Part shown: piece by piece, positions 43,999 through 59,317 of the stretch
Layout of the letters: each line of letters begins with the position of its first letter
Numbering within the stretch: the stretch's first letter is position 1
Assembly: GCF_000590925.1 (NCBI RefSeq)
Contig: NZ_CP004372.1
Location: 3,491,110-3,555,109, forward strand
Reading direction: 5' to 3'
From: Roseibacterium elongatum DSM 19469
Lineage (GTDB): Bacteria; Pseudomonadota; Alphaproteobacteria; Rhodobacterales; Rhodobacteraceae
DNA length: 64,000 nucleotides
Translations under genes and position numbers: made by a program
The notes under the pieces: model-generated
Seen by the model: the letters and a program-made list of their open reading frames with translations, nothing else
The model's database searches: none
What the model was told of the DNA's origin: nothing

Positions 43999-44874
43999 TC
44001 AAACCAGCAGCAACCGCGGATCGGCGATGAAACCGGCGTATCGCGAAAGGAATTTCGCGGCATCGGCGCCATTGATCACGCGATGATCGTAGGACAGGTC
44101 GAGGGGGACCATTGGCACAGGACGCGGCCCATCTTCCTCCCAAACCGTCACCGTCTCGGTGCGTGTGATGCCGAGGATGGCCACCTCGGGCGGATTGACG
44201 ATAGGTGTAAAGGCCGTTCCCCCGATGCCGCCGAGGTTCGATATCGTCATCGATGCGCCGCCCATTTCGTCCGGGCCGATCTTTCGCGATTGCGCACGCG
44301 CGGCCAAATCCGCGATTTCGGTCGAGATCTGCCACAGACCCTTGCGATCGGCATCGCGGATCACCGGGACCATCAGGCCGTGCGGCGTGTCCACGGCGAT
44401 GCCGATGTGAACGTAGTCCTTCAGGATCAGCCTTTCACCATCTGCCGACAGCGACGCGTTGAACCTCGGAAATTCCCGAAGCGTGCGCGCCAAGGCGGCA
44501 ACGTGGAATGCCAGAGCCGTCAGTTTCACCGACCGAGCGCGTGCCTCGGCTTTCCACGCGCTGCGCAGATCCTCGATAGCCGAAACATCGGCGCGGTCGT
44601 GATGGGTCACCGCCGGGATGAGCGTTTGCGCCGCTGCGAGATTGCGCGCCGCCACCTGCGCAAAGCGGCTCATCGGCTCTTCGGTCACGGGTCCGTATTG
44701 GGCGTGATCGACATCCCAATAGGACGTGTCTCCGGACACTGAAGGGGCCGGCGCGCCGTCAAGGTCCTCTGGTCCGATGGTCGTGCGGCCGAGCTTGCGC
44801 GCATGTGCTTCGAGGTCGACACCCTTTTGCAGGGCAAGCTTGCGGGTCGATGGGCTGGCGGAGATGTCGCTCAT
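43999..44874 (-). CDS. 2-oxoacid/acetoin dehydrogenase E2 core without lipoyl domain
   Basis: A 291-residue dihydrolipoamide acyltransferase. Residues about 6-40 form a peripheral subunit-binding domain (STRKLALQKGVDLEAHARKLG), then a linker, then the catalytic domain with SNLGGIGGTAFTPIVNPPEVAILGI and the active-site SYDHRVINGADAAKF (His about 264, Asn about 268; Asn in place of Asp is known in some E2p). It has no lipoyl domain at all. Last gene of the leftward operon, ten bases after the aldehyde dehydrogenase. It must take lipoyl groups from another protein, most likely the one at 46327. Confidence 0.88.
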   Translation of the reverse strand: MSDISASPSTRKLALQKGVDLEAHARKLGRTTIGPEDLDGAPAPSVSGDTSYWDVDHAQYGPVTEEPMSRFAQVAARNLAAAQTLIPAVTHHDRADVSAIEDLRSAWKAEARARSVKLTALAFHVAALARTLREFPRFNASLSADGERLILKDYVHIGIAVDTPHGLMVPVIRDADRKGLWQISTEIADLAARAQSRKIGPDEMGGASMTISNLGGIGGTAFTPIVNPPEVAILGITRTETVTVWEEDGPRPVPMVPLDLSYDHRVINGADAAKFLSRYAGFIADPRLLLV

Positions 44875-44884
44875 GCGATCGGCC

Positions 44885-46309
44885 TCACCATTCTGCCGAG
44901 ATGTACTGGGTCTCCATGAACTCCAGCATGCCTTCATGGCCACCTTCGCGCCCAAGGCCCGATTGCTTGGTGCCCCCGAACGGTGCGGCCGGGTCGCTGA
45001 CCAGCCCACGGTTCAGACCCACCATGCCATAGTCCAGTTTCTCGCAGACCTGCATGGCGCGTTTGAAGTCGTCGCTGAAGACATAGGCGACAAGCCCGTA
45101 TTCGGTGTTATTGGCGCGGCGGATCGCATCCTCTTCATCGGCAAAGGTCTGAATCGCCGCGACCGGGCCAAAGATCTCGTCCTGGACGCAATCGGCGGTC
45201 TCCGGCACGTTCGAGAGGACGGTCGGCGGGTAGAAGTAGCCCGGCCCGTTCGGCACCGTGCCGCCGCATTCCAGCTTGGCCCCTTTCGCCAGCGCATCCG
45301 AGACGAACTCGGCCACCTTGTCGCGCGTATCGGCATTGACCAAGGGGCCGACATCGACCGAGGGATCGGTGCCATCGCCCACCTTGAGCGCCGACATGCG
45401 TTGGGACAGTTTGGCGGTGAAGGCCTCGGCCAGATCCTCATGAACGTAGATGCGGTTCGCGGCGGTGCAGGCTTCGCCCAGATTGCGCATCTTGGCCAGC
45501 ATGGTGCCGTCGATGGCTGTGTTCATGTCAGCGTCTTTCAGCACCAGAACGGGCGCGTTGCCGCCCAGCTCCATCGCCGGTTTCAGCACCTGATCGGCTG
45601 CGGATTTCAGCAGTTTGCGTCCCACCCCGGTCGAGCCGGTGAAGCTGACCACGCGGACCCGTGGGTCGTGAAGCATGTGGTCGACAAGCGCGCCGGTCTT
45701 TTTCGAGGGCAGGACGTTGACGAGGCCCTTGGGCACGCCGGCCTCTTCCAGCAGGGGCATCAGCGCCAGCATGGTCAGCGGCGTTTCCGAGGCTGGCTTG
45801 ATGATGACGCCGCAGCCTGCGGCCAAGGCCGGGGCGGTTTTCCGCGTTCCCATCGCGGCGGGGTAGTTCCACGGGGTGACCAGCACGGCCAATCCGGCGG
45901 GCTTGTGCTGCACGACAATGCGCGCGCCCGAGGCGGGGGCATGGGTGATCATTCCATCGGCGCGCACGGCCTCTTCCGCGAACCAGCGGAAGAATTCGGC
46001 GGCATAGGTCGCCTCGCCCTTGGCATCCGCGCCGGCCTTGCCGTTTTCCAGCGTGATGAGATGGGCGAAATGATCCAGCCGTTCGGTCATCAACTCCCAC
46101 GCGCGGCGCAACACCTCGGAACGTTCGCGGGGTTTGCGTGCGGCCCAGTCGGCCATGGCGCGTTCGGCCGCATCGAGGGCCGCATCCGCATCGGCGATAT
46201 CGGCCGAGGCGACCGAGGCCAGCACTTCTTCGGTGGCTGGGTTGATCACGTCGAACCGCTCGGCGCCCTTGCGCCATTCGCCGTCGATATAGAGATCGGT
46301 GTAGTCCAT
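44885..46309 (-). CDS. NAD(P)-dependent aldehyde dehydrogenase
   Basis: A 474-residue ALDH of the succinate-semialdehyde dehydrogenase-like group. It has LVTPWNYPAAMGTRKTAPALA, FTGSTGVGRKLL, the catalytic Glu in MELGGNAPVLV and the catalytic Cys in NLGEACTAANRIYVH. In an acetoin-type pathway it would oxidise the aldehyde released by the TPP enzyme. Start at 46309 (MDYTDLYIDGEW). Spacings of 17 and 10 bases to neighbours show one operon. Confidence 0.92.
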   Translation of the reverse strand: MDYTDLYIDGEWRKGAERFDVINPATEEVLASVASADIADADAALDAAERAMADWAARKPRERSEVLRRAWELMTERLDHFAHLITLENGKAGADAKGEATYAAEFFRWFAEEAVRADGMITHAPASGARIVVQHKPAGLAVLVTPWNYPAAMGTRKTAPALAAGCGVIIKPASETPLTMLALMPLLEEAGVPKGLVNVLPSKKTGALVDHMLHDPRVRVVSFTGSTGVGRKLLKSAADQVLKPAMELGGNAPVLVLKDADMNTAIDGTMLAKMRNLGEACTAANRIYVHEDLAEAFTAKLSQRMSALKVGDGTDPSVDVGPLVNADTRDKVAEFVSDALAKGAKLECGGTVPNGPGYFYPPTVLSNVPETADCVQDEIFGPVAAIQTFADEEDAIRRANNTEYGLVAYVFSDDFKRAMQVCEKLDYGMVGLNRGLVSDPAAPFGGTKQSGLGREGGHEGMLEFMETQYISAEW

Positions 46310-46326
46310 GCGTGGCACTCCGTCTG

Positions 46327-47634
46327 TCAGAGCAGGTGGCGGAGCGGCTGCTCCATCCGGCCTGCGAATTCGGTGATAAGCTGGATCGCGTCTGACGCGT
46401 CGAGCTGTGCGGCTGCGCATTCCAGCGTGATGGCCAGGCCGGCCCTGTCATCGGTGAGCGACAAGACCGGTGTGGTCTCGGCCCCCATGTTCAGTGAGGC
46501 CAGCGATGTTCCCCGCAGGTCACGCACGATCAGCGCCGGGTCGTCATCGGTTTCCGAAACCCCGCTCAGGCTGCGACCGACCGGCACGTGGTAGGTTTGC
46601 CGGTTGCCAAATCGCTCGATGGCCACGCAAACCGCGTCGGCCCTTCCAAAGCTGGTTCCGGCAAAGCCCGCCAGAACCGCATCCGGGTTGAGCGCCCGTG
46701 TCTCCCCGGCCCAGAGAGAAAAGGCCGACAGGCGATCGGCCGAACACACCGCAGTCAGCCGGCGCGGGGCCTCGGAAGGGGGGGCAACGGGTGCCGCCGT
46801 GGCGCGCGGCATGTTGCGCAACACCTCCAGATCGGCCACGTGGAAGGGCTGTGGATGGCCAGCCTCGGCCAGGCTGGCGAGGTCCAGCCCCTGTTCAATC
46901 GCGAGACGCCGCGCCTTGGGCGAGGCCAGGATGCGCCCGCCAGGGTTTGGCGACGCTGCCGCTAGGGCGACGGTTTCGGTGGGTTGCCCGGCGGGGGATT
47001 TGTGGACTGATGGCGGCGGGGCCGATGTTTCGGCAGGCTTGGCTTCGGTGTCCTTCACCGAACGCGCGACCGGCGCGTCAGGTTTGTTGCCCGAAACGAT
47101 CGCCACCGGATCGCCCACCGGCACCTCTTCCCCGGCCTCGGCCAGCGTCGCAGCAAGCCAGCCGTCGCGGCCCGCCTCAACCTCCATGGTACTCTTGTCG
47201 GTTTCGACCTCGAACAGGATGTCATCGGCCGAGACCTGATCACCCGGCGCTTTCAGCCAACTGACCAACAGGCCGGTATCCTGCGCCATGCCAAGCTGCG
47301 GCATGGTCACGGGGTGACCCTCCGGGATCGTGTCATCTGCGGCGACTGGAGGGGCAGGGGCGGCCTGTGATGGGGCGGGGGCCGGGTCATCTTCGGCGCT
47401 GTCCGAGATGCGCGCGATCACATTGCCGACCGGCACATCATCGCCTTCGCCATAGGACACGCCCGTCAGAAATCCGTCGGCCGGTGCCTCGACCTCCATC
47501 ACCGCCTTGTCGGTTTCGACCTCGAACAGGGCATCGCCCTTGGACACCGGATCGCCCGGCGCCTTGAGCCAGGACACGATCTTGCCCGCGTCCTGCGCCA
47601 TGCCGAGCTGAGGCATGGTCACGTCATGCGGCAT
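46327..47634 (-). CDS. Double-lipoyl scaffold protein with inactive E2-like domain
   Basis: A 435-residue protein: lipoyl domain 1 (residues 1-80, Lys43 in VETDKAVMEVE), lipoyl domain 2 (107-183, Lys147 in VETDKSTMEVE), Pro/Ala linkers, subunit-binding domain (about 233-272, ASPKARRLAIEQGLDLASLA) and a C-terminal region (about 291-435) that aligns with the end of E2 cores. The active-site stretch DHRVING of the partner E2 reads AAAQLDA here, so the catalytic His is Ala. It resembles eukaryotic E3-binding protein in design. It overlaps E1 beta by 11 bases. It probably supplies swinging arms to the separate E2 core at 43999. Confidence 0.82.
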   Translation of the reverse strand: MPHDVTMPQLGMAQDAGKIVSWLKAPGDPVSKGDALFEVETDKAVMEVEAPADGFLTGVSYGEGDDVPVGNVIARISDSAEDDPAPAPSQAAPAPPVAADDTIPEGHPVTMPQLGMAQDTGLLVSWLKAPGDQVSADDILFEVETDKSTMEVEAGRDGWLAATLAEAGEEVPVGDPVAIVSGNKPDAPVARSVKDTEAKPAETSAPPPSVHKSPAGQPTETVALAAASPNPGGRILASPKARRLAIEQGLDLASLAEAGHPQPFHVADLEVLRNMPRATAAPVAPPSEAPRRLTAVCSADRLSAFSLWAGETRALNPDAVLAGFAGTSFGRADAVCVAIERFGNRQTYHVPVGRSLSGVSETDDDPALIVRDLRGTSLASLNMGAETTPVLSLTDDRAGLAITLECAAAQLDASDAIQLITEFAGRMEQPLRHLL

Positions 47635-48619
47635 GGATCATCTCCCCCGCGCAGAGCTTGCGCGCGTTTTCGACCACACCTTCGGGCGTGGGAACGGTCA
47701 GATCCTCCAGCGCCGGGGAAAACGGCACCGGCACATCCATCGCCCCCATGCGCAGGACGGGTGCATCGAGGTGGTAGAACGCCTTTTCGTTCAGGCGACT
47801 GGCGATCTCGGCGGTGACGCCATAGCTCTGGTGGCCTTCGTCGATGACGATGGCGCGGCTTGTCTTCTTGACGCTGTCCAGCAGCGTCGCCTCGTCCAGC
47901 GGCACGATGGTGCGCGGGTCGATCACCTCGGCGTCGATCCCGTCGCCGGCCAGCATCTCGGCGGCCTTTTCGGCGACCTGCACCATGGAGGACGTGGCGA
48001 TCAGGGTGATATCCGACCCCTCGCGCTTGGTATGCGCCTCGCCGAAGGGGATCAGGTATTCCTCTTCCGGGACAGGGGCCTTGTCCTGATACATCAGCTT
48101 GTCTTCGAAGATGACGACCGGGTTGTTGTCGCGGATCGCCGTCTTCATCAGGCCCTTTGCCTCGTAGGCCGAGGAGGGCAGGGCGACCTTGAGGCCGGGA
48201 ATATGCGCGACAAGCGCCTGCAAAGACTGGCTGTGTTGCGCGGCCGAACGGCGCGTGGCACCGAGGTTGGTGCGCAGGACCATCGGCACGGTCAGCTTGC
48301 CGCCCGACATGTAATGCTGCTTGGCCGCTTGGTTACACAGCTGGTCCATCACGAGATAGATGAAATCGCCGAACATCAGGTCGACAACGGGCCGCGCGCC
48401 GGTCATCGCGGCGCCCACGGCCATTCCGACAAACCCGGGTTCCGAGATCGGCGTGTCGATAACGCGGTCGGTGCCGAATTCTTCGACAAGACCGGACAGC
48501 ACCTTGAAGGGCGTTCCGGCCTCGGCGACATCTTCGCCAAGGATGAAGACGCTCGGGTCGCGGCGCATCTCTTCGGCAAGCGCCTCGTTCACGGCTTGGG
48601 ACAGGGTGATTTCTCGCAT
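47624..48619 (-). CDS. TPP-dependent dehydrogenase E1 beta subunit (AcoB-like)
   Basis: A 331-residue E1 beta subunit: EALAEEMRRDPSVFILGEDVAEAGTPFK, TPISEPGFVGMAVGAAMTGARPVVD and the C-terminal transketolase domain (VIDPRTIVPLDEATLLDSVKKTSRAIVIDEG). It forms an alpha2beta2 enzyme with the neighbouring alpha subunit and decarboxylates a 2-oxo acid or cleaves an acyloin, handing the acyl group to lipoamide. The stop lies inside the scaffold gene start. Confidence 0.92.
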   Translation of the reverse strand: MREITLSQAVNEALAEEMRRDPSVFILGEDVAEAGTPFKVLSGLVEEFGTDRVIDTPISEPGFVGMAVGAAMTGARPVVDLMFGDFIYLVMDQLCNQAAKQHYMSGGKLTVPMVLRTNLGATRRSAAQHSQSLQALVAHIPGLKVALPSSAYEAKGLMKTAIRDNNPVVIFEDKLMYQDKAPVPEEEYLIPFGEAHTKREGSDITLIATSSMVQVAEKAAEMLAGDGIDAEVIDPRTIVPLDEATLLDSVKKTSRAIVIDEGHQSYGVTAEIASRLNEKAFYHLDAPVLRMGAMDVPVPFSPALEDLTVPTPEGVVENARKLCAGEMIHAA

Positions 48620-48629
48620 CGGTCTCTCC

Positions 48630-49607
48630 TCAGTCCGCGTAAACGTGCATGTCGACCTCGTTGGCCGGCGGGTAGGGGGCCTGTTCGGCATAGGCCACGG
48701 CCTCGGTCGCGTTTTTCTCGATCTCGGCATTCATCGCCTCGATTTCTGCCTCGGTGGCGATCCCTTCGCTGACAAGGAAAGCGCGGAAGCGGATGATCGG
48801 GTCGCGATTGTCCTTCCAGTCCTTCTCCTCGTCCTTCGAGCGGTAGTATTCACGGTTGATGTCGCCGACATGGTGCCCGTGGTAGCGATAGGTCATCAGT
48901 TCCATGAAGAACGGGCCCTCGCCCTTGCGGGCCCGCGCCACCAGCTTTTGCGTCAATTCGTTGACCGCCAGCACATCCTGCCCGTCGACCGTATGCGCCT
49001 CGATGCCGAACGCCTCGGCGCGGGCCGTGATCGAACCTGCGGCGATTTCCTCGGTCTTGGTGTATTCCGAATAGCCGTTGTTCTCGCAGGCGTAGATCAC
49101 CGGCAGGTTCCACAGCGCGGCCATGTTCATGACCTCGTACATCAGCCCCTGCGCCGTCGCGCCATCACCGAAGAAACAGACCGTGACATCATCCTTTCCC
49201 ATCAGCTTGGCGCGCAGGGCCGAGCCTGTGGCGATCCCCATGGACCCGCCGACGATGGCGTTCGCGCCAAGGTTCCCGTGGCTTTGATCGGCGATATGCA
49301 TCGACCCGCCCTTGCCCCGGCAATAGCCCTCGGCCTTGCCGAGCAACTCGCAGAACATTTCCTTGAACTCCGCCCCCTTGGCGACGCAATGCCCGTGGCC
49401 GCGATGGGTCGAGGTGATGCGGTCGTCGTCGGTCAGCGCCTCGCAGATGCCCACGGCGACGGCTTCCTCGCCGGAATACATGTGGGTCAGCCCCGGCATT
49501 TTGGCCGACAGGTAGAGCTGGTTGGCATTGTCTTCGAAAGTGCGGATGCGAACCATCTGGCGATACATGCGCAGGTAGTCCTCGGTATTCGTCTTGGCTT
49601 TGGCCAT
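48630..49607 (-). CDS. TPP-dependent dehydrogenase E1 alpha subunit (AcoA-like)
   Basis: A 325-residue E1 alpha subunit with the thiamine diphosphate motif FFGDGATAQGLMYEVMNMAALWNLPVIYACENN separated over two short stretches, GHGHCVAKGAEFKEM and GGSMHIADQSHGNLGANAIVGG. The match to acetoin:DCPIP oxidoreductase is closer, by recall, than to pyruvate dehydrogenase; this fits the acetoin-reductase-like SDRs in the locus. ATG at 49607 with a GGGAGG site. Confidence 0.9.
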   Translation of the reverse strand: MAKAKTNTEDYLRMYRQMVRIRTFEDNANQLYLSAKMPGLTHMYSGEEAVAVGICEALTDDDRITSTHRGHGHCVAKGAEFKEMFCELLGKAEGYCRGKGGSMHIADQSHGNLGANAIVGGSMGIATGSALRAKLMGKDDVTVCFFGDGATAQGLMYEVMNMAALWNLPVIYACENNGYSEYTKTEEIAAGSITARAEAFGIEAHTVDGQDVLAVNELTQKLVARARKGEGPFFMELMTYRYHGHHVGDINREYYRSKDEEKDWKDNRDPIIRFRAFLVSEGIATEAEIEAMNAEIEKNATEAVAYAEQAPYPPANEVDMHVYAD

Positions 49608-49694: not shown

Positions 49695-50993
49695 TCAGTA
49701 GCGGTTCGCGATGGGCAGCTCTTCAGCCGGGAAGAGGCTGATCACTTCGCAGCCGGTTTCCGTGACCACGACCTCTTCCTCGATCCGGGCGGCGGAATAG
49801 CCGTCGCTGGCTGGACAGTAGGTTTCCAGCGCAAAGACCATGCCGGTCTGGATCTCCATCGGGTGATCCAGCGACACGGCGCGGCTGATGATCGGGCGCT
49901 CGTGCAGCGCCAACCCCAGGCCGTGACCGAATTGCAGGCCAAAGGCCGCGTCCTCGTTCGGGAAACCCAGGCTTTCGGCGGTCGGCCAGACCTCGGCCAC
50001 CTTGTCGGTGGTCACGCCGGGCCGGATCATCGCGATGGAGGCATCGATCCACTCGCGCGCCCGGATGTAGGCGTCGGTCTGCGACGGTGTCGCGCGGCCG
50101 ATGTTGAAGGTCCGATAGTAGCAGGTGCGATAGCCCTGATAGCTTTGCAGGATGTCGAAGAACGCCTGGTCACCGGGGCGGAACAGCCGGTCGGTGAAGT
50201 TGTGCGGATGCGGGTTGCACCGCTCGCCCGAAATGGCGTTGATCGCCTCGACATCGTCCGACCCCATCTCGTAGAGAAGCTTGTTGGACAGCGCGACGAT
50301 GTCGTTTTCGCGGACGCCTGGTTTCAGCTCTTCGTAGATCATGTGGTAGACGCCATCGACCATGCTGGCCGCTTGGGTCAAAAGCTGGATTTCGTCCCAG
50401 TTCTTGATCTCGCGCGCCGACAGCATGATTTGCTGGCCGTCGACCACCTTGATCCCTTCTTCCTGTAAGGCGTGGAACATCGCGGTTTCGGCATAGTCGA
50501 CGCCGACCGGCATGTCGGCCATCCCGGCCTCCTTGATCAGGCGCGCGATTTCCTTGGCGTATTTCTTCATCAACCCGAACTCGGGCGGGATGGTGCCGCG
50601 CATGCCGACCACACCGGCGAGGCAGTGGTCAGGCTCCAGCCAATCGGAGTACCGCTGGTGATGCACGGCGGCCGAGCCGAAATCCCAGACATAGGGGCTG
50701 TCATCGCCGGTCAGCAGGCAGAACCGGCACATCTTGTCCCGTTCCCACTCGCCGATCTTGGTGGCCGAGACGTAGCGGATATTGTTGACGTCGAACAAAA
50801 GCAGCGTGCCTGCCTCGGACGCCTGGAGCGCCTGCCGCGTGCGGGCAAGGCGGTAACGGCGCAGGCGGTCATGGTCGATGCGGCGTTCGAAATCGACCGA
50901 GGTATGGCCCCAGGCCGGCAGGCGTTCCCGCCATTCCCAATTGGGTTCCAGATCTTGCGGGGTCAGAAGGTTCGGCATCAATGCGCGAGACAT
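49695..50993 (-). CDS. M24-family (creatinase/aminopeptidase P-like) protein, one metal ligand missing
   Basis: A 432-residue pita-bread-fold protein with an N-terminal creatinase domain and C-terminal M24 domain. Of five usual metal ligands, Asp280 (FFDILQ), His357 (FGHGLG), Glu390 (ALETYC) and Glu405/406 (ARIEEE) are present. The second Asp of DxGxxxxGYxxD is Cys291 (GYRTCYYRTF). Metal-free hydrolysis as in creatinase is possible, and DddP-type DMSP lyase was considered but its pattern is not matched. It is co-transcribed with the TPP dehydrogenase genes, so it likely acts on the same substrate. Start ATG 50993 has better ribosome-site spacing than 50996. Confidence 0.8.
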   Translation of the reverse strand: MSRALMPNLLTPQDLEPNWEWRERLPAWGHTSVDFERRIDHDRLRRYRLARTRQALQASEAGTLLLFDVNNIRYVSATKIGEWERDKMCRFCLLTGDDSPYVWDFGSAAVHHQRYSDWLEPDHCLAGVVGMRGTIPPEFGLMKKYAKEIARLIKEAGMADMPVGVDYAETAMFHALQEEGIKVVDGQQIMLSAREIKNWDEIQLLTQAASMVDGVYHMIYEELKPGVRENDIVALSNKLLYEMGSDDVEAINAISGERCNPHPHNFTDRLFRPGDQAFFDILQSYQGYRTCYYRTFNIGRATPSQTDAYIRAREWIDASIAMIRPGVTTDKVAEVWPTAESLGFPNEDAAFGLQFGHGLGLALHERPIISRAVSLDHPMEIQTGMVFALETYCPASDGYSAARIEEEVVVTETGCEVISLFPAEELPIANRY

Positions 50994-51058
50994 CATAAGC
51001 TCCTTTCGGGTGCGTTCTCGCGCACCCACTGAGGTCGGAAAATCAGGGTGTCGGCGAT

Positions 51059-51865
51059 CTACTTCGTGACCCAGCCGCCATCGATGGAGATCATCTGGCC
51101 GGTCATGTAGTCGCTGTCGTCGGAAGCGAGGAACGAGGCGGTTCCGATGATGTCCTTTGGATAGGACACGCGCTTGATGACAAGGTTGTTCTCGACGATG
51201 TCGTCGTAGGCTTGACCTTCGCGTTCCTTGAAGCCGATTTCGACGAGATCCTTATCAAGCTGCTCCCAGAGCGGCGTCACGACGACGCCGGGCGCGTATC
51301 CGTTGACGGTGATGTTGTGCTCGGCAAGGCCGAGTGCGCCGCATTCGGTCAGGGCAAGGCAGCCGTATTTCGAGGTGCAATAAACGGTGACGTCCACCAA
51401 GGGCTTGCGCGATGCGATAGAACCCACGTTGATCAGCTTGTAGGGCTTTTCCTGCGGGCCCTGGGCGATCATCTGGCGGGCGGTTTCCTGCATGCCAAGC
51501 CACATCGCCTTGGTGTTGACGTTCATGATCATGTCCCAGTTGTCTTCATCGATATCCATGAAGAACCGGGGCTTGTTCAGGCCGGCATTGAAAAGGCCGA
51601 CATTGATGCTGCCAAAGGCATCCACCGTGGCGTCGACCGCGTTGCGATTGTCCTCGCGCTTGGTCACGTCCATCTTGACGGCGATCGCCTTGCCGTTGCC
51701 GGCTGCATTGATCTTGTCCGCCATCGCCTGCGCTTCATCCCCGTCGAGATCGCCGAGGCAGACATTCGCGCCTTGGGCGGCAAACGCTTCGGCATTGGCG
51801 GCACCCATGCCGCGTGCGGCACCAGTGATAAGGATGTGCTTTCCCTTCAGGCGATTGGGGTCCAT
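51059..51865 (-). CDS. Short-chain dehydrogenase/reductase
   Basis: A 268-residue classical SDR: ILITGAARGMGAANAEAF nucleotide motif, FNAGLNKPRF, the catalytic Ser in VGSIASRKP and Tyr-Lys in VYCTSKYG. The LWEQLDKDLVEIG segment recalls acetoin reductase/2,3-butanediol dehydrogenase. Likely NAD-dependent oxidation of a secondary alcohol of the imported compound. Paralogue of the SDR at 54933 in the opposite operon. Start at 51865 with a GGGAGG site. Confidence 0.9.
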   Translation of the reverse strand: MDPNRLKGKHILITGAARGMGAANAEAFAAQGANVCLGDLDGDEAQAMADKINAAGNGKAIAVKMDVTKREDNRNAVDATVDAFGSINVGLFNAGLNKPRFFMDIDEDNWDMIMNVNTKAMWLGMQETARQMIAQGPQEKPYKLINVGSIASRKPLVDVTVYCTSKYGCLALTECGALGLAEHNITVNGYAPGVVVTPLWEQLDKDLVEIGFKEREGQAYDDIVENNLVIKRVSYPKDIIGTASFLASDDSDYMTGQMISIDGGWVTK

Positions 51866-51875
51866 GGTTTCCTCC

Positions 51876-53693
51876 CTATTGGACTGATCTTTCAAGGATT
51901 TCCTCTGCCTGCGCCTGCAGGCGAAGAAGCGCCTCCTCCGGCGCCACGATGCCGCGCAGCATGTCGTGCAATTCCATGCCGCAGAGGTTGATGATGTCGG
52001 AAATCTGCGCGATCGGCGGGCGCGGCCAGAATTGCAGTTCGTCGCGCCACGACATCTGGTCCACCAGTTCGAAAATCGGCGACAGGCGTCGCACTTCGGG
52101 GTCGGCGCCAACGGAGTAACGCGGCGCTGTTCGGCTGCCATTCTGGATGTAGAGTTTCTGCGCCGATGGCGACGTGAAGGCGACAAGCGCCTCGACCGCA
52201 TCATCGACACGTTCCTCGCTCAGGTTTGCCGGGATGCACAGCGCATAGCCGCCCACAGGTGCAATCGGGGCGCCGTCGGGTCCGTGCGGGTGTGGCAGGT
52301 ATCCTGTGTTGCCAAATGCCGGACAGGTTTCGTCCAGTTCGAAATACGGGGCCAGCAGCGTGTACCCGTAAGCCATCGCGACCTTGCCCCCGGCGAAGGG
52401 GCGCACGCGTTCGTACCACGACATCGACAGGATGTCGGGTGGAGAGAACTGCATCAGGTCCATCAAGTATTCAGCCGCGTCGCGGGTGCGCGGCGAATCT
52501 ATCCGTGCCCTGTAATGGCCGCCAGCAAGGTCGCTTGCGTCGAACCCGCCTGCGACTTCCGGCAATTCGATGATGGGCTGCCCAAAGGCCGCGCTTGTCA
52601 TCATGAAAGTGTGCCCGAGCGCTGTGCCGCGTGCAGCATTCCAGGCGACCCCATACCGACCATTGCGCGGATCGTGGAAATGGCGCGCGGCGGCGATCAC
52701 GTCGTCATGAGTGGCTGGCGGCGCCAGACCTTCGCGCGCGAACCAGTCCTTTCGATAGAACATCAATTCTGGTGTGGTCTGGCTTGGCACACCATAAGGT
52801 ACGCCCCCCCAATGGGTTGCACGCCATCCCGCCGTGTGGAAATCGCTTGGGTCCAGCCGATCGACATCCATGATCTCGGGAAGCGGCCGGAGAACACCCT
52901 TGGACACAAACTCCCCGATCCAAGGCAGGTCGACCGCGATCAGGTCATAAGCACTTTTCTTTCGTTCGGCATTGCGCAGGGTTTCCTCGCGCAAACGGTC
53001 AATGGAGAAGGCGCGTTGATGAATGTCGGTTCCGACAATCTGTTCGAACTGGCGCTTGAGTGTATCCATGACCATGAAGGTCGGATCGCCATGAACGAGG
53101 ATCCGAAGACCCCCAGCCAGCTTGAGGGGCGACAACAGCGCGCTGGGCGGCGCGATTGCCGCTTGGCCTGGCACGTAAGAACCGCCGTAGAAATAGTCAC
53201 CGGCATGATCCTCGGCATCGAAGGCCTCGCGAGCGAGACGCCCGACGCGGCTTGCCAGCTGACTGAAGTGGTCAAGAAGGTCTGCACTGGGGTGAAGGGA
53301 AAAACTGCGACCAGTTTTCGTTCTGGCTCTTTGTTCGACATAGCCAGCAGACTGGATCTCGGCCAGCTTCCGCATCGCGGTTGCATAGGGAACTCCGGAC
53401 GCGGACGCCATCGACGACGCGGATACCAACCGCCCTTCTACATGCCCTCGCAAAAGGTGCAGCAGCATGTTCAAATGCGGGTTCGGCGTTGTAGGGTCGA
53501 GCGATGTGTCCAGTTCAACGGTCAGGTCCGTCAAGAACCCGATGAGCCGCGCGAGTTCGGCATCGGCCACGCCATTGGACGAAAGGGATCGGCTCGAGGC
53601 CGCACCTTGTCCATTTTGAATGGCGTTGGCAGCTTGACTGAGCATGGTCCCCTTGGCGCCTGACGGTGCGGTGCATATCGGTGGGCGTTTCAC
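51876..53693 (-). CDS. Cytoplasmic regulator: winged helix fused to an ABC solute-binding-protein domain
   Basis: About 605 residues without a signal peptide or membrane helix. Residues about 73-140 form a winged-helix-like unit (NMLLHLLRGHVEGRLVSASS, SGVPYATAMRKLAEIQSAGYVEQR). Residues about 195-590 form a family 1-type extracellular solute-binding domain (DLIAVDLPWIGEFVSKG, GVPYGVPSQTTPELMFYRKDWF, VGGYALCIPANLSEE). The binding domain must therefore sense its ligand in the cytoplasm. First gene of the catabolic operon, divergent from the importer. GTG 53693 follows AGGGGG; ATG 53645 is an alternative start. A one-component sensor with a MalE-like domain is unusual. Confidence 0.8.
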   Translation of the reverse strand: MKRPPICTAPSGAKGTMLSQAANAIQNGQGAASSRSLSSNGVADAELARLIGFLTDLTVELDTSLDPTTPNPHLNMLLHLLRGHVEGRLVSASSMASASGVPYATAMRKLAEIQSAGYVEQRARTKTGRSFSLHPSADLLDHFSQLASRVGRLAREAFDAEDHAGDYFYGGSYVPGQAAIAPPSALLSPLKLAGGLRILVHGDPTFMVMDTLKRQFEQIVGTDIHQRAFSIDRLREETLRNAERKKSAYDLIAVDLPWIGEFVSKGVLRPLPEIMDVDRLDPSDFHTAGWRATHWGGVPYGVPSQTTPELMFYRKDWFAREGLAPPATHDDVIAAARHFHDPRNGRYGVAWNAARGTALGHTFMMTSAAFGQPIIELPEVAGGFDASDLAGGHYRARIDSPRTRDAAEYLMDLMQFSPPDILSMSWYERVRPFAGGKVAMAYGYTLLAPYFELDETCPAFGNTGYLPHPHGPDGAPIAPVGGYALCIPANLSEERVDDAVEALVAFTSPSAQKLYIQNGSRTAPRYSVGADPEVRRLSPIFELVDQMSWRDELQFWPRPPIAQISDIINLCGMELHDMLRGIVAPEEALLRLQAQAEEILERSVQ

Positions 53694-53745
53694 TGGATGT
53701 CCCCCTGAATTGTTCAAATTGAGAGTAGCTGCGGCCCTCCGAAGA

Positions 53746-53782
53746 TATCCAATTCGGATAAAAAATCACCCAAAATGGATAT
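53746..53782. promoter_or_regulatory. Candidate operator half-sites in the divergent control region
   Basis: TATCC-AATTC-GGATA at 53746-53760 is an inverted repeat, and TATCCA at 53746 pairs with TGGATA at 53776. The A/T-rich block sits between the regulator (leftward) and the binding-protein gene (rightward), the expected site for control of both operons. Confidence 0.5.
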
Positions 53783-53895
53783 AAATGGGTCGTTTGATTG
53801 CGACTGAAAACACGCTCGATACAACGCAGATTGCACCGGGCGATTCCCGGGCTGGGAGGACAGCGGCAATCCGTTAGAAAACTGGGAGGAAGAAT

Positions 53896-54855
53896 ATGAT
53901 CCGAATGACCAAGCTATCGCTTGCGTGTTCCACTGCACTCGTCGCCATGGGGGGCGCAGCAGCAGCACAGACCATCACAATCGGCATCACGCAGAACAAC
54001 GTGGGCGTCGACAGCTACCAGACGACCTATGAGCAGGCCTTCATCGCCGCAGCCGAGGCCAATCCCGATGTCGAGGTTGTCGTGCTGGACGCCGGCGGCG
54101 ACGTGGCGCGCCAGATCGCGCAGATCCAGGACCTGATCCAGCAAGAAGTCGACGCCATGATCATTTGGCCGACCAATGGTCAGGCTGTCATTCCCGCTGT
54201 GCGCGAGGCCTACCAGGCGGGCATCCCCGTCATCATCACCAACTCGAATATCGCCGAAGATGGGTTCGACTTCGTGCGGTCCTTCTCGGGGCCGGATAAC
54301 ATCACGCAGGGTGCCCGCGCCGCGGAGATCATGTGCGAACGCTTCACCGATATGGGCATCCAGGACGAAGCGCAGATCGTACAGATCACCGGCCAGCCGG
54401 GTTATACCACCGCGATCGAGCGCGCCGAGGGGTTCGAACAGCGTCTGCCCGAGGTCTGCCCGAACGTCACGCTGATGGAAAGCCAGCCCGGCAACTGGAA
54501 CCGGGAAGACGCGCAGCGCGTGATGGAAGCGTTCCTCGTCCAGTACGACGACATCGACGGTGTCTATTCGGGTGATGACAACATGGGCGTTGGTGCCTTG
54601 AACGCTGCTTTGGCGGCAGGTCGAGCCGAAGACATCACCTTCGTCGGTGCCACGAATTTCGCGGTTGGCTATGATGCCATGGAGCGCGGCGAATACTGGG
54701 GCTCGATCTACCAGTCGCCGGTAGATGACGCCCAGGCGGCGCTGCAGACCGCGCTGGATATTCTTGCAGGCGAAGACGTGCCGTTCCTGAACTATTTCGA
54801 CACGCCGAAGATCACGCAAGAGAACATGGGCGAATTCGATCGTCCGGTTTTCTAA
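53896..54855 (+). CDS. Periplasmic binding protein, ribose-class ABC importer
   Basis: A 319-residue periplasmic binding protein of the RbsB/peripla_BP_4 type. The signal peptide (LACSTALVAMGGAAAAQ) is cleaved near residue 24. The fold then starts TITIGITQNNVGVDSYQTTYEQAF, with VDAMIIWPTNGQAVIPAV and the hinge-side GVYSGDDNMGVGALNAAL. It should deliver a sugar, polyol or related small carbohydrate to the permeases at 55818 and 56811. First gene of the rightward operon, followed by an intrinsic hairpin. Confidence 0.92.
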   Translation: MIRMTKLSLACSTALVAMGGAAAAQTITIGITQNNVGVDSYQTTYEQAFIAAAEANPDVEVVVLDAGGDVARQIAQIQDLIQQEVDAMIIWPTNGQAVIPAVREAYQAGIPVIITNSNIAEDGFDFVRSFSGPDNITQGARAAEIMCERFTDMGIQDEAQIVQITGQPGYTTAIERAEGFEQRLPEVCPNVTLMESQPGNWNREDAQRVMEAFLVQYDDIDGVYSGDDNMGVGALNAALAAGRAEDITFVGATNFAVGYDAMERGEYWGSIYQSPVDDAQAALQTALDILAGEDVPFLNYFDTPKITQENMGEFDRPVF

Positions 54856-54932: not shown

Positions 54933-55739
54933 GTGGTCGAACCTCGTGGTGTCGAAGGTCGTGTATGCATTGTCACCGGCGCAGCCAGGGGCATCGGTCG
55001 CGCCATCGGTGAGGCACTGCTCGCGGACGGGGGCAAGGTCTGTTTCGCCGATCTCAACGCCGGTCTGGCGGCCGAAGTGGCCGAAACGAACAAGGCAAGC
55101 GCAGGCGTAGACGACGGCTCGGTGATGTCGGCGGGTGTCGATGTCCGGGACCGGGCGCAATTCCGTGCCATGGTGGAGGCAACCGTGGCAAGCTTTGGCA
55201 GGTTGGACGTCATGTTCAACAATGCCGGCGTGAACAAACCGATGAATTTCCTCGATGTCACCGAGGACAATTGGCATCTCATCATGGACGTGAATGGCCT
55301 TGGGTGTCTGATCGGTATCCAGGAGGCTGCTCGGCAGATGATCGCCCAAGGGGGTGGGGGAAAGATTGTGAACACCGCCTCGATCGCGTCTCGTCAGGGC
55401 TTTGACAATGTCGCGCCCTATTGTGCATCGAAATGGGCCGTGGTCAGTCTGACGCAATCGGCGGCACGCGATCTGGCCAAGCATGATATCACGGTCACCG
55501 GATTTGCCCCGGGCGTTGTCGCGACCGAGATGTGGGAGCAGGTCGATCAGGATCTGATGGCCATCGGTGCGGCGGAGCGCCCCGGTCAGGCCATGGAGGA
55601 ATTCTCGGCAGATATCCTGAAAGGGCGTGTCGCGCGGCCTGAAGACATCACCGGAACCACTACGTTCCTTGCGTCGCGCGCAAGCGACTACATGACCGGG
55701 CAAATCGTGATGATCGACGGAGGCATGACCTTGGTCTGA
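54933..55739 (+). CDS. Short-chain dehydrogenase/reductase, acetoin-reductase-like
   Basis: A 268-residue SDR starting at GTG 54933 after AGGGGG. It has CIVTGAARGIGRAIGEAL, MFNNAGVNKPM, TASIASRQGF and the catalytic YCASKWAVV. The GVVATEMWEQVDQDL segment is typical of acetoin/diacetyl reductases and butanediol dehydrogenases. It sits between the binding protein and the permeases, so its substrate is likely the imported compound or its first product. Paralogous to the SDR at 51059. Confidence 0.9.
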   Translation: MVEPRGVEGRVCIVTGAARGIGRAIGEALLADGGKVCFADLNAGLAAEVAETNKASAGVDDGSVMSAGVDVRDRAQFRAMVEATVASFGRLDVMFNNAGVNKPMNFLDVTEDNWHLIMDVNGLGCLIGIQEAARQMIAQGGGGKIVNTASIASRQGFDNVAPYCASKWAVVSLTQSAARDLAKHDITVTGFAPGVVATEMWEQVDQDLMAIGAAERPGQAMEEFSADILKGRVARPEDITGTTTFLASRASDYMTGQIVMIDGGMTLV

Positions 55740-55817: not shown

Positions 55818-56798
55818 ATGGCCGATCAGGCTATGAAATCGCTTGGCAGTGTGTTGGCGCGACAGGGCATTCTCGTCGCCTTTATTCTGTTCATGGTGAG
55901 CTTCACGCTCTGGAATCCGCGCTTTATCGATGTGGATAATGTGTTTGGTGTGATCCGGTCTTCGGCAATCCTCGGGATCATGGCCCTGGGGGTCACCTTT
56001 GTCGTGATCGGCGGCAATCTCGACCTTTCGGTTGGGTCCATGCTGTCCTTTTCGGCCATCGTGGTGCTGGACCTGCACGAAAACCCCGCTTTCGGGCCGG
56101 CCCTTGCCATCCCTGCGATGTTTGCGATGACCCTTTGCCTTGGGGCGATCAATGGGTTCCTGATCGGGTATCTCAGGTTGAATTCTTTGATCGTGACGCT
56201 GGGGATGCTCTCGGCCATCCATGGCCTGACGCTGACCTACTCGGGCGGTCAGAACATGGATATCGCCAACCAGAATGAAACCTGGTTCGATGTCTTTGGC
56301 CGGGGAGAAGCCCTGGGCATCCCCATTCCGGTGCTCATTTTCCTTTTGCTTGCGGCGTTCCTCGGCATCGTGCTGGCCAAGACCCCGTTCGGTCGCAAGG
56401 TCTATGCGGTCGGGGGCAACGGGACGGCGGCGACGTTTTCAGGCATACCGCGCGCCCGCGTGGTTTTCATGACTTACCTTATCTCAGCCTTTTGCGTGGC
56501 GACGGCCGGCCTGATCCAGGCCAGTCGCACCATGGGGGCCCAGAACACCGTTGGCCAAGGCATGGAGTTGGAGGTTCTGGCCGCCGTCATTCTTGGAGGG
56601 GCGTCGTTGCTGGGCGGATCGGGCACGATCTTCAAGACGGTGATCGGGGTGCTCATCCTCGGATTTATCCAAAATGGACTCCTGCTGGCCGGGCTCGAGT
56701 TTTACGTCCAGTTCGTCGTCACCTGGATCATCATCATCCTGGCCGTCTGGCTCGATATCGCCACCAAGCGCGGCAAGCTTTGGTCGCCGATCGCCTGA
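55818..56798 (+). CDS. ABC importer permease 1, RbsC-type
   Basis: A 326-residue membrane permease of the branched/ribose class with about eight to ten helices. The conserved cytoplasmic contact GNGTAATFSGIPRARVVFMTYL and GQGMELEVLAAVILGGASLLGGSGT are present. It has 39% or so visible pattern sharing with the second permease in these two regions by eye only. It should form a heterodimeric channel with the protein at 56811. Confidence 0.9.
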   Translation: MADQAMKSLGSVLARQGILVAFILFMVSFTLWNPRFIDVDNVFGVIRSSAILGIMALGVTFVVIGGNLDLSVGSMLSFSAIVVLDLHENPAFGPALAIPAMFAMTLCLGAINGFLIGYLRLNSLIVTLGMLSAIHGLTLTYSGGQNMDIANQNETWFDVFGRGEALGIPIPVLIFLLLAAFLGIVLAKTPFGRKVYAVGGNGTAATFSGIPRARVVFMTYLISAFCVATAGLIQASRTMGAQNTVGQGMELEVLAAVILGGASLLGGSGTIFKTVIGVLILGFIQNGLLLAGLEFYVQFVVTWIIIILAVWLDIATKRGKLWSPIA

Positions 56799-56810: not shown

Positions 56811-57812
56811 ATGCAGAACGAGACCCTCAAGCGGTTGATCAAGAACGGTGCGATCTGGGCCTTTATCATCATCCAGCTGGTTTTTTTCGAGGTAGCCGGT
56901 CGCTGGTGGTCGCTCAGTGACAGCGCCTTCATGGACCTCGACAACATGCTGTTGTTGCTCAAGCAGTCGGCCCCGATCGGCATTATTGCCATCGGCATGA
57001 CGGTGGTCATGATCAACGGAAATATCGACCTCTCCGTGGGCGCGACTTATGCGCTGGCCGGGATTGTCATGCTCGACTCGATGAATTGGCCGTTCATGGA
57101 GGCAATGGGCGACGCCGCGATCCCGCTCGCGTGGCTGTTCGCGTTGTTCACAGGGGCAATTCTGGGGCTGATCAACGGCGTGATCGTTTGGAAGACCGGC
57201 GTCGATGCCTTCATCGTCACGCTTGGCGCAATGTTGGGCTATCGCGGCCTCGTCTTCATGTATAACGGCGAGAACCCGACCTATCACCTGAACTGGACGA
57301 TGGTCGATTTCGCCGAGGCGGATATTCTTGGCCTGCAAACGCCTGCCTTGGTTTTCATCGCCGTTGTCCTGATCGTCTGGCTGCTAATGACCCGCACGGT
57401 GCATGGGCGCAATGCCTATGCCATTGGCGACAACCGCGAGGCCGCCGTGAATGCCGGTATCCGCGTCGGGCCGCATATCGTCGTGAACTTCGTTTTGATC
57501 GGGTTCCTCGCCGCCCTGTCGGCCGTGGCGTTCTACTCGGGCAGCGGGTCGGTCAATCCAAATGACGGAATGCTGTTCGAACTGTGGGCCATCACCGCCG
57601 TCGTCTTGGGCGGCACCAAGCTGGCCGGGGGGCGCGGGTCTATCATCGGCACGCTTGGCGGTGTGATCGCCATCCAACTTTTGCGCAAGGGCCTTGGCCA
57701 TATCGGCGCGGACACCGAGACCGTGAACCTTGTCATCGGCACCATCCTGATCGCGGTCCTGTTTCTGGATCGGCAGCTCAATCGCAAGGGCGCAGAGGAG
57801 TTGAAAGTATGA
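56811..57812 (+). CDS. ABC importer permease 2, RbsC-type
   Basis: A 333-residue RbsC-type permease with the characteristic MTVVMINGNIDLSVGATYAL, GDNREAAVNAGIRVGPHI cytoplasmic loop and ITAVVLGGTKLAGGRGSI motifs. Two permease genes, not one, indicate a heterodimer as in some xylose- or polyol-type importers. It overlaps the ATPase start by four bases (ATGA). Confidence 0.9.
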   Translation: MQNETLKRLIKNGAIWAFIIIQLVFFEVAGRWWSLSDSAFMDLDNMLLLLKQSAPIGIIAIGMTVVMINGNIDLSVGATYALAGIVMLDSMNWPFMEAMGDAAIPLAWLFALFTGAILGLINGVIVWKTGVDAFIVTLGAMLGYRGLVFMYNGENPTYHLNWTMVDFAEADILGLQTPALVFIAVVLIVWLLMTRTVHGRNAYAIGDNREAAVNAGIRVGPHIVVNFVLIGFLAALSAVAFYSGSGSVNPNDGMLFELWAITAVVLGGTKLAGGRGSIIGTLGGVIAIQLLRKGLGHIGADTETVNLVIGTILIAVLFLDRQLNRKGAEELKV

Positions 57813-59317
57813 CCGATCATACACCGGCACTTCGTCTCAAAGGTATCGTGAAGACGTTTCCCGGCGTCCGTGCCCTCGACGGCGTCAGCTTCTCGGTCCT
57901 TCCGGGCGAGGTTCACGCCCTCATGGGGGAAAACGGCGCTGGCAAGTCCACTTTGATGAAGGTTCTGGGCGGGATCTATCAGCCTGACGCCGGAAAGATC
58001 TTCATCGAGGAACGCGAAACCGAGATGCGCGGGCCGCTCGAGGCCAAGGCCAATGGGGTAATGTTCATTCACCAGGAACTCAGCCTTGCAGAGGAATTGT
58101 CGGTCGCCGAGAATATCTATCTCGGGGAGTTGCCCCGCAAAAGCTTCGGTCGCGTTGACTGGGCGACGCTTTATTCCCGAACCGACGCAATCCTCGAAAA
58201 GCTCAAGGTGGGCTTCAATGCCCGGACCTTGGTTGGAGACCTTTCCATTGCGAACCAGCAGATGGTCGAGATCGCCCGCGCCCTCACCGTGGACGCGAAG
58301 GCGGTGATCTTCGACGAGCCCACGGCATCGCTGACCGATGCCGAGAAGGTTGTTTTGTTCGACGTTATCGAGGGTCTGAAGGCACAGGGCGTGGGGATCA
58401 TCTACATCTCCCATCGCATGGAAGAAATCTTCAAGATGACGGACCGCATCTCGGTTCTGCGAGATGGGGAGTATCGCGGCACACTCAACACCGCTGAAAC
58501 GAATGAGGACGAGATCACGCAGATGATGATCGGGCGGTCTCTCGATATCAGCCGCAATGTCGAGCAGGTGGAGCTTGGACCGGTCGCCCTGCGGGTCGAG
58601 AACCTGTCTTGCGGGCATCTTTTTGAGGACGCCACTTTCGAGGTCCGCGAGGGCGAAGTGCTGGGATTCTACGGCCTGGTCGGGGCAGGCCGCACCGAGA
58701 TTGCCGAAACCCTGTTCGGCTTGCGCAAACCGACCTCGGGGCAGATCTATCTGAAGGGGGAGGCGGTCAAGATTACCTCGCCGATCGATGCGATAGCGAA
58801 GGGCATTTCCCTGGTCCCGGAAAGCCGGAAGGAGCAAGGCCTCGTCCTTGGCATGAATTGCCGGGACAACATGACCTTGCCGCAGGTTGCCGACCTGACG
58901 GCGGGACCGTTCGTCTCCGACGGCGCGGAAATCTCGATCTACGATCAGTATCGTGATCGCCTGTCCATCAAAAGTCCAAGCTGGAAAACGGCCGTTGGCA
59001 ACCTGTCGGGCGGAAACCAGCAAAAGATCGTGATTGGCAAATGGTTGTCGATGCAGCCGGAGGTGCTGATCGTGGACGAGCCAACGCGCGGTATCGATGT
59101 CGGGTCGAAATCTGAAATCCACAATCTGCTGCGCGGCTTGGCGAAACAGGGTTACGCCGTGATCGTGATATCGTCGGAAATGCCCGAGGTGCTTCATGTC
59201 TCCGACCGGATCGTCGCCATGTACCATGGCCGAATTATGCGCGAGTTCTGCGCAACGGAGGTGACGGAGGACAGCCTTATCCAGGCGATCTCGGGCATCG
59301 AAGGGACGGCCGCATGA
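57809..59317 (+). CDS. ABC importer ATPase with two nucleotide-binding domains (RbsA-type)
   Basis: A 502-residue duplicated ATPase. Domain 1 has Walker A MGENGAGKSTLMKVL, Q-loop FIHQELSL and Walker B VIFDEPTASLT. Domain 2 has the degenerate Walker A GLVGAGRTEIAETL, signature LSGGNQQKIVIGKWL and Walker B LIVDEPTRGID, as is normal for RbsA, where only one site is fully active. Completes the importer; last gene of the rightward operon. Confidence 0.95.
   Translation: MTDHTPALRLKGIVKTFPGVRALDGVSFSVLPGEVHALMGENGAGKSTLMKVLGGIYQPDAGKIFIEERETEMRGPLEAKANGVMFIHQELSLAEELSVAENIYLGELPRKSFGRVDWATLYSRTDAILEKLKVGFNARTLVGDLSIANQQMVEIARALTVDAKAVIFDEPTASLTDAEKVVLFDVIEGLKAQGVGIIYISHRMEEIFKMTDRISVLRDGEYRGTLNTAETNEDEITQMMIGRSLDISRNVEQVELGPVALRVENLSCGHLFEDATFEVREGEVLGFYGLVGAGRTEIAETLFGLRKPTSGQIYLKGEAVKITSPIDAIAKGISLVPESRKEQGLVLGMNCRDNMTLPQVADLTAGPFVSDGAEISIYDQYRDRLSIKSPSWKTAVGNLSGGNQQKIVIGKWLSMQPEVLIVDEPTRGIDVGSKSEIHNLLRGLAKQGYAVIVISSEMPEVLHVSDRIVAMYHGRIMREFCATEVTEDSLIQAISGIEGTAA

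Follow-up and report, generated by a model that had tools for sequence, protein, structure and literature searches.

A predicted transcription factor that joins a winged helix to a family-1 solute-binding domain, encoded between a ribose-class importer and a catabolic operon

Why should a solute-binding domain of the MalE/TMBP type follow a winged helix, in a protein that carries no detected export signal and whose gene is divergent from an importer equipped with a binding protein of another class? The question is raised by the gene at 51876..53693 on the minus strand of the window, the stretch of 64,000 nucleotides from Roseibacterium elongatum DSM 19469 that was analysed here. An earlier note, made from the letters alone, proposed that a solute-binding domain is used in this protein to sense an intracellular ligand and to drive the DNA-binding helix. 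Sequence comparison and fold prediction make it very probable that the product regulates transcription locally and carries its solute-binding sensor in the cytoplasm.

The predicted regulator, a winged helix joined to a family-1 solute-binding domain, comprises 605 aa and begins at a GTG codon at 53693. The longest start for the frame that ends at 51876 is a TTG at 53717, but the GTG is preceded by GGGGGA and is matched in the near relative L003 by an ATG at the equivalent position, and for these reasons the start and length that the earlier note had assumed are very likely right. Relatives of the regulator are 598-622 aa long when their starts are assigned by a simple Shine-Dalgarno rule; the start of L009 was set by hand to give 605 aa, where the rule had given 589. 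An in-frame stop lies 16 codons 5' of the longest possible start (an open frame of 629 aa compared with 613), which excludes a hidden long N-terminus in the window. An N-terminal extension bearing a signal peptide or a membrane helix, named in the earlier note as the finding that would speak against a regulator, was not found by hydropathy.

Export signals and membrane helices were sought by Kyte-Doolittle hydropathy together with a lipobox scan, and by these measures neither a signal peptide nor a membrane helix was found in the window protein and 80 relatives, as the earlier note had anticipated. Over 19 residues the window protein peaks at a mean of 1.13 and none of the 81 proteins exceeds 1.51, against 2.88 for the importer permease that served as a positive control. 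Within the first 60 residues the highest 12-residue mean is 1.24 in the window protein and at most 1.78 among the 81, against 1.93 for the other control, the importer binding protein, which exceeds the top value of the set by a small margin. A lipobox-like match is likewise missing from the first 60 residues of all 81 proteins. The N-terminus is of the cytoplasmic type, and the signal peptide or lipobox that belongs to family-1 ABC solute-binding proteins is not detected by hydropathy and lipobox scan.

The AlphaFold2 model, which rests on 52 aligned sequences, has a mean pLDDT of 87.2 and a pTM of 0.71; an earlier model from 39 close relatives only had reached a pLDDT of 63, which rose to 87 once homologues and seven stand-alone binding proteins were added. 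A pLDDT below 50 is confined to residues 1-42 and 159-177. The winged-helix DNA-binding domain with its flanking helices spans residues 41-158 (53220..53573, minus strand), and its core at residues 72-135 follows the order helix-helix-helix-strand-wing-strand with pLDDT block means of 81-95, the recognition helix lying at about 103-115, the wing at 119-135 and the flanking helices at 41-64 and 137-158. The DNA-binding fold expected within residues 1-150 is thus present in a confident model. The statement that the protein begins with a winged helix is right as to its N-terminal place and wrong in its letter, as about 40 disordered residues come first. Residues 159-177 form a flexible linker to the family-1 solute-binding domain of the MalE/TMBP type (residues 186-603; 51885..53138, minus strand), in which a complete two-lobed fold is predicted with high confidence at residues 196-601. 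Hydropathy and structure model together describe an HTH domain joined to a solute-binding domain without an export signal.

For the model Foldseek ranks 5iai first (E 1.9e-27, TMt 0.90, rmsd 2.5, 411 columns), followed by TMBP and MalE3; the best 50 matches listed are all solute-binding or MBP-fusion chains and speak to the solute-binding half, not to the winged helix. SBP_bac_1 (6.8e-26) and SBP_bac_8 (1.2e-18) are the only Pfam families above cut-off in the whole protein, and both match in 39/39 relatives. A profile of the domain alignment A5 finds 5iai at 6.1e-59, and the closest solved PDB relatives are named as sugar, trehalose/maltose or sorbitol binding proteins. In fold and in sequence the domain is therefore that of a family-1 ABC solute-binding protein, and the C-terminal domain of some 400 residues described from the letters alone is borne out. 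The winged helix is matched far more weakly. In the whole protein HTH_IclR (0.043) and MarR_2 (0.05) remain sub-threshold, and the MarR and IclR models give 14.2 and 14.0 bits against cut-offs of 27 and 22. The isolated domain raises these to 18.3 and 19.3 bits, which is still under the cut-offs, as is HTH_IclR at 9.4e-4 in the window protein, so that the domain is not placed in either family by the curated cut-offs. At E<=0.01 the isolated domain is matched by MarR_2 in 22 of 45 members (best 5.6e-6) and by HTH_IclR in 13 of 45. A PDB profile search with residues 41-158 returned nine chains at E<=1, all of them weak matches; chains of TubR, MarR and IclR head the list at E 0.001-0.05, and the last ones are chance-like. 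The recognition region is conserved where the rest drops to about 30% identity, and T65, R68 and P95 of the domain are invariant in 45/45 members. Of the two halves of the fusion the solute-binding domain has diverged less, with 69-84% identity to the window (10 main-family rows of alignment A5) compared with 42-76% for the winged-helix part (20 main-family rows of alignment A4).

The fusion is not peculiar to this genome. A scan of genome contigs confirmed 159 stretches, from which 80 loci with 60-99% identity were kept; in 80/80 of these the two halves form one ORF, and all have a divergent importer. Across 244 Rhodobacterales genomes a full-length homologue occurs in 41, the own genome included (40 at >=60% identity, one at 35%). 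The remaining matches in the list begin no earlier than residue 163 and lack the winged helix, and the tally of 179 for these genomes includes such matches. A profile search of the same order found the fusion in 80 of 390 genomes and in 50 of 139 genera, with partial or split genes in G688 and G739 and one internal stop in five of the matches listed. Among 385 genomes of the class ten have a match at E<=1e-20, eight of which span both halves, and among 398 genomes of the phylum there are 14 matches at E<=1e-30, of which six span both halves and two are in new places (G996 and G889); scoring in the order, class and phylum searches covered a few top candidates in each genome. Homologues reach down to about 30% identity in other Alphaproteobacteria and are sporadic elsewhere. 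Plasmid records hold 33 more, among them 12 from Phaeobacter, seven from Rhizobium and one from Paraburkholderia. In a tree, 25 fusion sensors are split by one branch from 10 stand-alone binding proteins (support 91/94), a small sample in which long branches are present, and this sequence-based picture is compatible with one old fusion event. A local origin of the sensor, as a copy of the neighbouring importer's binding protein, was considered for L100, L161 and L165, whose regulators have family-1 binding proteins beside them, and was rejected, as these neighbours are far from any fusion sensor: their best scores against fusion sensors are 45-59 bits at 22-29% identity, compared with 80-156 bits for the best of other stand-alone proteins.

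The regulator opens an operon and is divergent from an importer of the RbsB class, as the earlier note had it. Directly downstream on the minus strand lies an SDR oxidoreductase (51059..51865), which adjoins the regulator in 79/80 loci at a median gap of 15 bases. It is followed on the same strand by an M24-family protein (49695..51029), DddP/DoeA-like yet far under the NCBIfam cut-offs, the E1 alpha (48630..49607) and E1 beta (47624..48730) of a TPP-dependent dehydrogenase, a protein with two lipoyl domains (E2-like; 46327..47634), an aldehyde dehydrogenase (ALDH; 44885..46420) and a 2-oxoacid dehydrogenase E2 catalytic domain (43999..45009), the last recognised at 44002-44874 by homology to a Phaeobacter gene. 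The coordinates of E1 beta and ALDH are those of the longest ORF, the true start probably lying inside the former and downstream in the latter. The M24, E1 alpha, E1 beta, lipoyl and ALDH genes were all found in 59/80 loci; nine of the remaining 21 end within 2.8 kb of the regulator, and 12 are without some of the genes despite at least 4.9 kb of following sequence. An annotated Phaeobacter record has the same gene order together with a separate E2 catalytic subunit and lpdA; in the window the E2 catalytic gene is present, and no lpdA match was found at 1e-10. As side observations, the nearest models to the M24 protein are DddP (118.7 bits, cut-off 600) and DoeA (64.7 bits, cut-off 613), and the E2 functions look split between the lipoyl protein, which shows no acyltransferase domain at E<=1e-5, and the acyltransferase-domain protein encoded after the ALDH gene.

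On the plus strand the divergent importer begins with its own ribose-class binding protein (53896..54855; Peripla_BP_4, 7.4e-51), as had been read from the letters, and an RbsB-class protein lies divergent within 400 bases in 80/80 loci. A second SDR oxidoreductase (54933..55739), ABC permease 1 (55818..56798), ABC permease 2 (56811..57812; named by its place and its conservation beside permease 1) and an RbsA-class ABC ATPase (57584..59317 as the longest ORF, the true start probably near residue 76) follow. The adjoining importer is thus of the RbsB/RbsA class and is not a family-1 importer cognate to the sensor.

The divergent promoter region contains ATCCANNNTGGAT palindromes, typically two, which stand 21 bp apart. 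In the window these are represented by a predicted operator nearer the regulator gene, ATCCAATTCGGAT (53747..53759), and another nearer the importer, ACCCAAAATGGAT (53768..53780), each with one mismatch and the two 21 bp apart. A third conserved half-site of the TGAACA/TGGACA type lies at 53711..53721 on the minus strand, just upstream of the ribosome-binding site of the regulator. ATCCANNNTGGAT is present without mismatch in 32 of 81 intergenic regions compared with 0.05 in shuffles, and with up to one, two and three mismatches in 62, 76 and 81 regions compared with 1.4, 14.25 and 55.9, the pattern having been read off the same 81 regions in which it was counted. A pair spaced by exactly 21 bp occurs in 27 of the 81 regions if each site may have one mismatch, in 52 if it may have two and in 68 if it may have three. 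The TGRACA half-site is found no more than 50 nt before the start in 49 regions, the window included, compared with 2.0 in shuffles. Single palindromes with up to one mismatch are not enriched across the 64-kb window (three compared with 1.63 in shuffles), so it is the position of the sites, their pairing and their conservation that carry the signal. In its own genome the tandem is the best match with one mismatch and the next has two; this search used a slightly relaxed pattern with up to three mismatches and gave six matches compared with one for the reversed control.

A -10-like ATAC between operator and half-site is found in 33 of 81 regions compared with 10.0 in shuffles, and none in the window; the promoter is therefore not located there and the sign of control is weakly based. 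No Rfam match pointing to a riboswitch was found in the divergent region 53600-54000 at E<=1. As a separate observation, the importer mRNA leader (53829-53871, plus strand), which has no Rfam match, is predicted to fold into an outer stem GATTGC/GCAATC, a hairpin CCGGG/CCCGG and a GCTG-GGAGGA-CAGC hairpin with the Shine-Dalgarno-like GGAGGA in its loop. The outer stem recurs by pattern in 22/81 leaders, and the folding energy is mildly low against simple shuffles (mean z -0.81, 40/81 below -1).

Because the pattern had come from the regions in which it was counted, a 17-bp matrix was built from 141 sites and applied outside its training set. Under leave-one-out scoring the intergenic region contains the top-scoring site of the entire locus in 64 of 80 cases and one of the three top-scoring positions in 79 of 80. 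The matrix was also applied to the upstream regions of 28 homologues that had no part in training; some of these are closely similar, and they are not mutually independent. Of the 28 regions, 17 pass at p<0.05. Eight of the 17 sites are within the longest possible reading frame: seven precede the aligned conserved part, and the site of L154 lies inside the regulator coding sequence. No site stands directly upstream in the other 11 (L102, L103, L105, L150, L156, L157 and L161-L165), partly because regulators lie inside operons. A whole-locus scan with 60 resamples for each locus places the best site at p<=0.05 in 17 of 24 loci. It failed at this level in L101, L104 and L155 (p 0.07-0.12) and in L102, L103, L156 and L164, and in these last four a site was found neither upstream nor elsewhere in the locus. 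In L105, where the regulator lies within an operon, strong sites separate the SDR from the importer genes (2459/2479) and precede the M24 gene (14000). The sites at p<=0.02 in L161 (10729), L162 (7835), L163 (252, 7843 and 11947) and L165 (11668) all lie between annotated genes (6/6, in a gene table known to be incomplete). In L147 and L150 the best site falls within the reading frame of the regulator itself, which was counted against the operator reading. By computation, then, the protein combines a DNA-binding fold with conserved candidate sites, as expected of a transcription factor, some homologues being without a site.

On this evidence the protein is probably a cytoplasmic one-component transcription factor, with a winged helix that acts on the palindromes and a solute-binding sensor through which the importer and the operon are controlled. 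Dimers would bind the ATCCANNNTGGAT palindromes of the divergent promoter region via the winged helix, and would do so side by side, since the two sites stand two helical turns apart. The solute-binding domain, made without a signal peptide, would close on a sugar-, polyol- or cyclitol-like compound, which may be the imported substrate or an early product, and this closure would change the hold of the winged helix on the DNA. The regulator would repress its own operon, and with ligand it would allow or activate transcription of the importer and of the SDR-M24-E1/E2-ALDH operon. Autorepression fits sites so close to the regulator start, and activation or shared repression of the importer is suggested by the other operator, which faces the importer. 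A scheme of repression followed by release with ligand is a best guess as to the sign of regulation and is weakly based. The ligand is most likely sugar-, polyol- or cyclitol-like by analogy, because the PDB relatives are sugar or sorbitol binders and the clusters of homologues hold SDRs, Gfo/Idh proteins, isomerases and sugar importers; these neighbourhoods vary, and it is therefore named as a class alone.

Other readings of the locus differ in which half of this proposal they deny. Database labels favour an ordinary periplasmic protein or lipoprotein that binds solute for an ABC importer and merely has an odd N-terminus: of the 33 plasmid records 26 say 'extracellular solute-binding protein' and one 'ABC-type sugar transport system, periplasmic component' (one more says 'hypothetical', three have no feature and two no annotation), in keeping with SBP_bac_1 and SBP_bac_8 as the sole Pfam families above cut-off. 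Such a protein would not be expected to lack a signal-peptide-like or membrane segment and a lipobox-like match in all 81 sequences, to keep its winged helix down to about 30% identity, or to be encoded behind conserved palindromes and opposite an importer that already has an RbsB-class binding protein of its own, and this reading is highly improbable.

If transcriptional control is accepted, the solute-binding domain might still serve as an oligomerisation scaffold or a dock for another protein and sense no small molecule. The adjoining importer uses an unrelated class of binding protein, so that nothing ties the sensor domain to the same substrate, and for DsvR of Vibrio cholerae too the inducing signal is reported not to be known (PMC13060122). 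The stronger conservation of the solute-binding domain and its complete two-lobed fold at high confidence favour a sensor, and the scaffold or dock appears unlikely. The palindromes could also be those of another regulator, the protein being a DNA-binding factor with different targets; the link between protein and site is indirect, and some homologues have no detectable site. Yet sites of this type are found with homologues whose identity ranges from about 30 to 80% and whose gene sets differ. It recurs as TATTCAAATTGAATA in 1.4-Mb genomes (where the upstream test was passed and the whole-locus p is 0.08), and the distant genome L158 has two tandem sites 21 bp apart, so that ownership by another regulator seems rather improbable.

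The closest precedent is the SgrR design. DsvR (Vca0578), the SgrR homologue of V. cholerae, joins an N-terminal HTH to a C-terminal SBP_bac_5 domain, and negative autoregulation is reported for SgrR of E. coli (PMC13060122). The regulator described here is likewise a predicted transcription factor with an N-terminal HTH and a C-terminal solute-binding domain, but its sensor is SBP_bac_1/SBP_bac_8 and it is predicted to act locally, on the genes for import and catabolism. Neither SBP_bac_5 nor SgrR_N (PF12793), the Pfam model of the SgrR N-terminus (PMC7017128), matches the window protein at E<=1 or 39 relatives at E<=0.1, so by sequence it is of SgrR-type design yet not a member of the SgrR family. 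From family-1 periplasmic binding proteins (5iai Arad_9887, 1eu8 TMBP, 4rya), with which it shares the fold and sequence of residues 186-603, it differs in having no detected export signal and in being joined to a winged helix. LacI-family regulators combine a ribose-binding-class sensor with a LacI HTH and thus also join a solute-binding-protein-like sensor to a DNA-binding domain, whereas here the sensor is of the MalE/TMBP class and the winged helix MarR/IclR/TubR-like. LysR-type regulators share the plan of a winged helix and a two-lobed sensor of the binding-protein type, but that sensor is smaller, and no LysR model matches the window protein at E<=1. The earlier suggestion that the fusion is not a textbook class holds in part: among the matches listed in openly licensed PMC literature none describes a family-1 binding domain fused to a winged helix, an absence of little weight, whereas the HTH and solute-binding design has precedent in SgrR and DsvR (PMC13060122). 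The family-1 form may be what is new.

Many marine bacteria carry such a gene. With somewhat less assurance than for the single protein, it is likely that these genes make up a widespread unnamed regulator family, in which a cytosolic MalE/TMBP-class sugar receptor acts as the sensor of a MarR/IclR-like winged helix. The family, from one apparent old fusion, would control an importer and sugar- or cyclitol-type clusters in Rhodobacterales, Rhizobiales, small alphaproteobacterial genomes and beyond, and is counted by databases among ABC binding proteins. If this is true, proteins counted as transporter parts are regulators, which would change transporter counts and regulon predictions in marine Rhodobacterales. 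A second solute-binding class would be added to the SgrR design, usable for sugar biosensors, and there would be a route to unknown substrates, since the ligand of the sensor would name the cluster. The predicted operator and neighbour regulon are open to immediate testing.

The clusters around distant homologues vary and include Gfo/Idh proteins, sugar isomerases, SDRs, sugar importers and intradiol dioxygenase/maleylacetate reductase pairs. The Rhizobiales homologues L162, L163 and L165 cluster with intradiol dioxygenase and maleylacetate reductase, and with Gfo/Idh in L162 and L163, which suggests from gene content that sugar-like compounds may be linked there to a hydroxyquinol-type breakdown. 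In L104 (G272, a genome of 1.4 Mb) a distant homologue is accompanied by TIM-barrel, Gfo/Idh, HpcH/HpaI, SDR and importer genes and by SDR and M24 homologues (57% and 66%), with palindromes ahead of the importer (8038) and of the SDR-M24 pair (12836), whose whole-locus p is 0.08-0.10. Two different regulator homologues face each other about 6 kb apart in L099 (7663-9420 and 15297-17132), with importer ATPase and permease genes between them, and the same paired arrangement recurs in L151 (7918-9672 and 15542-17374).
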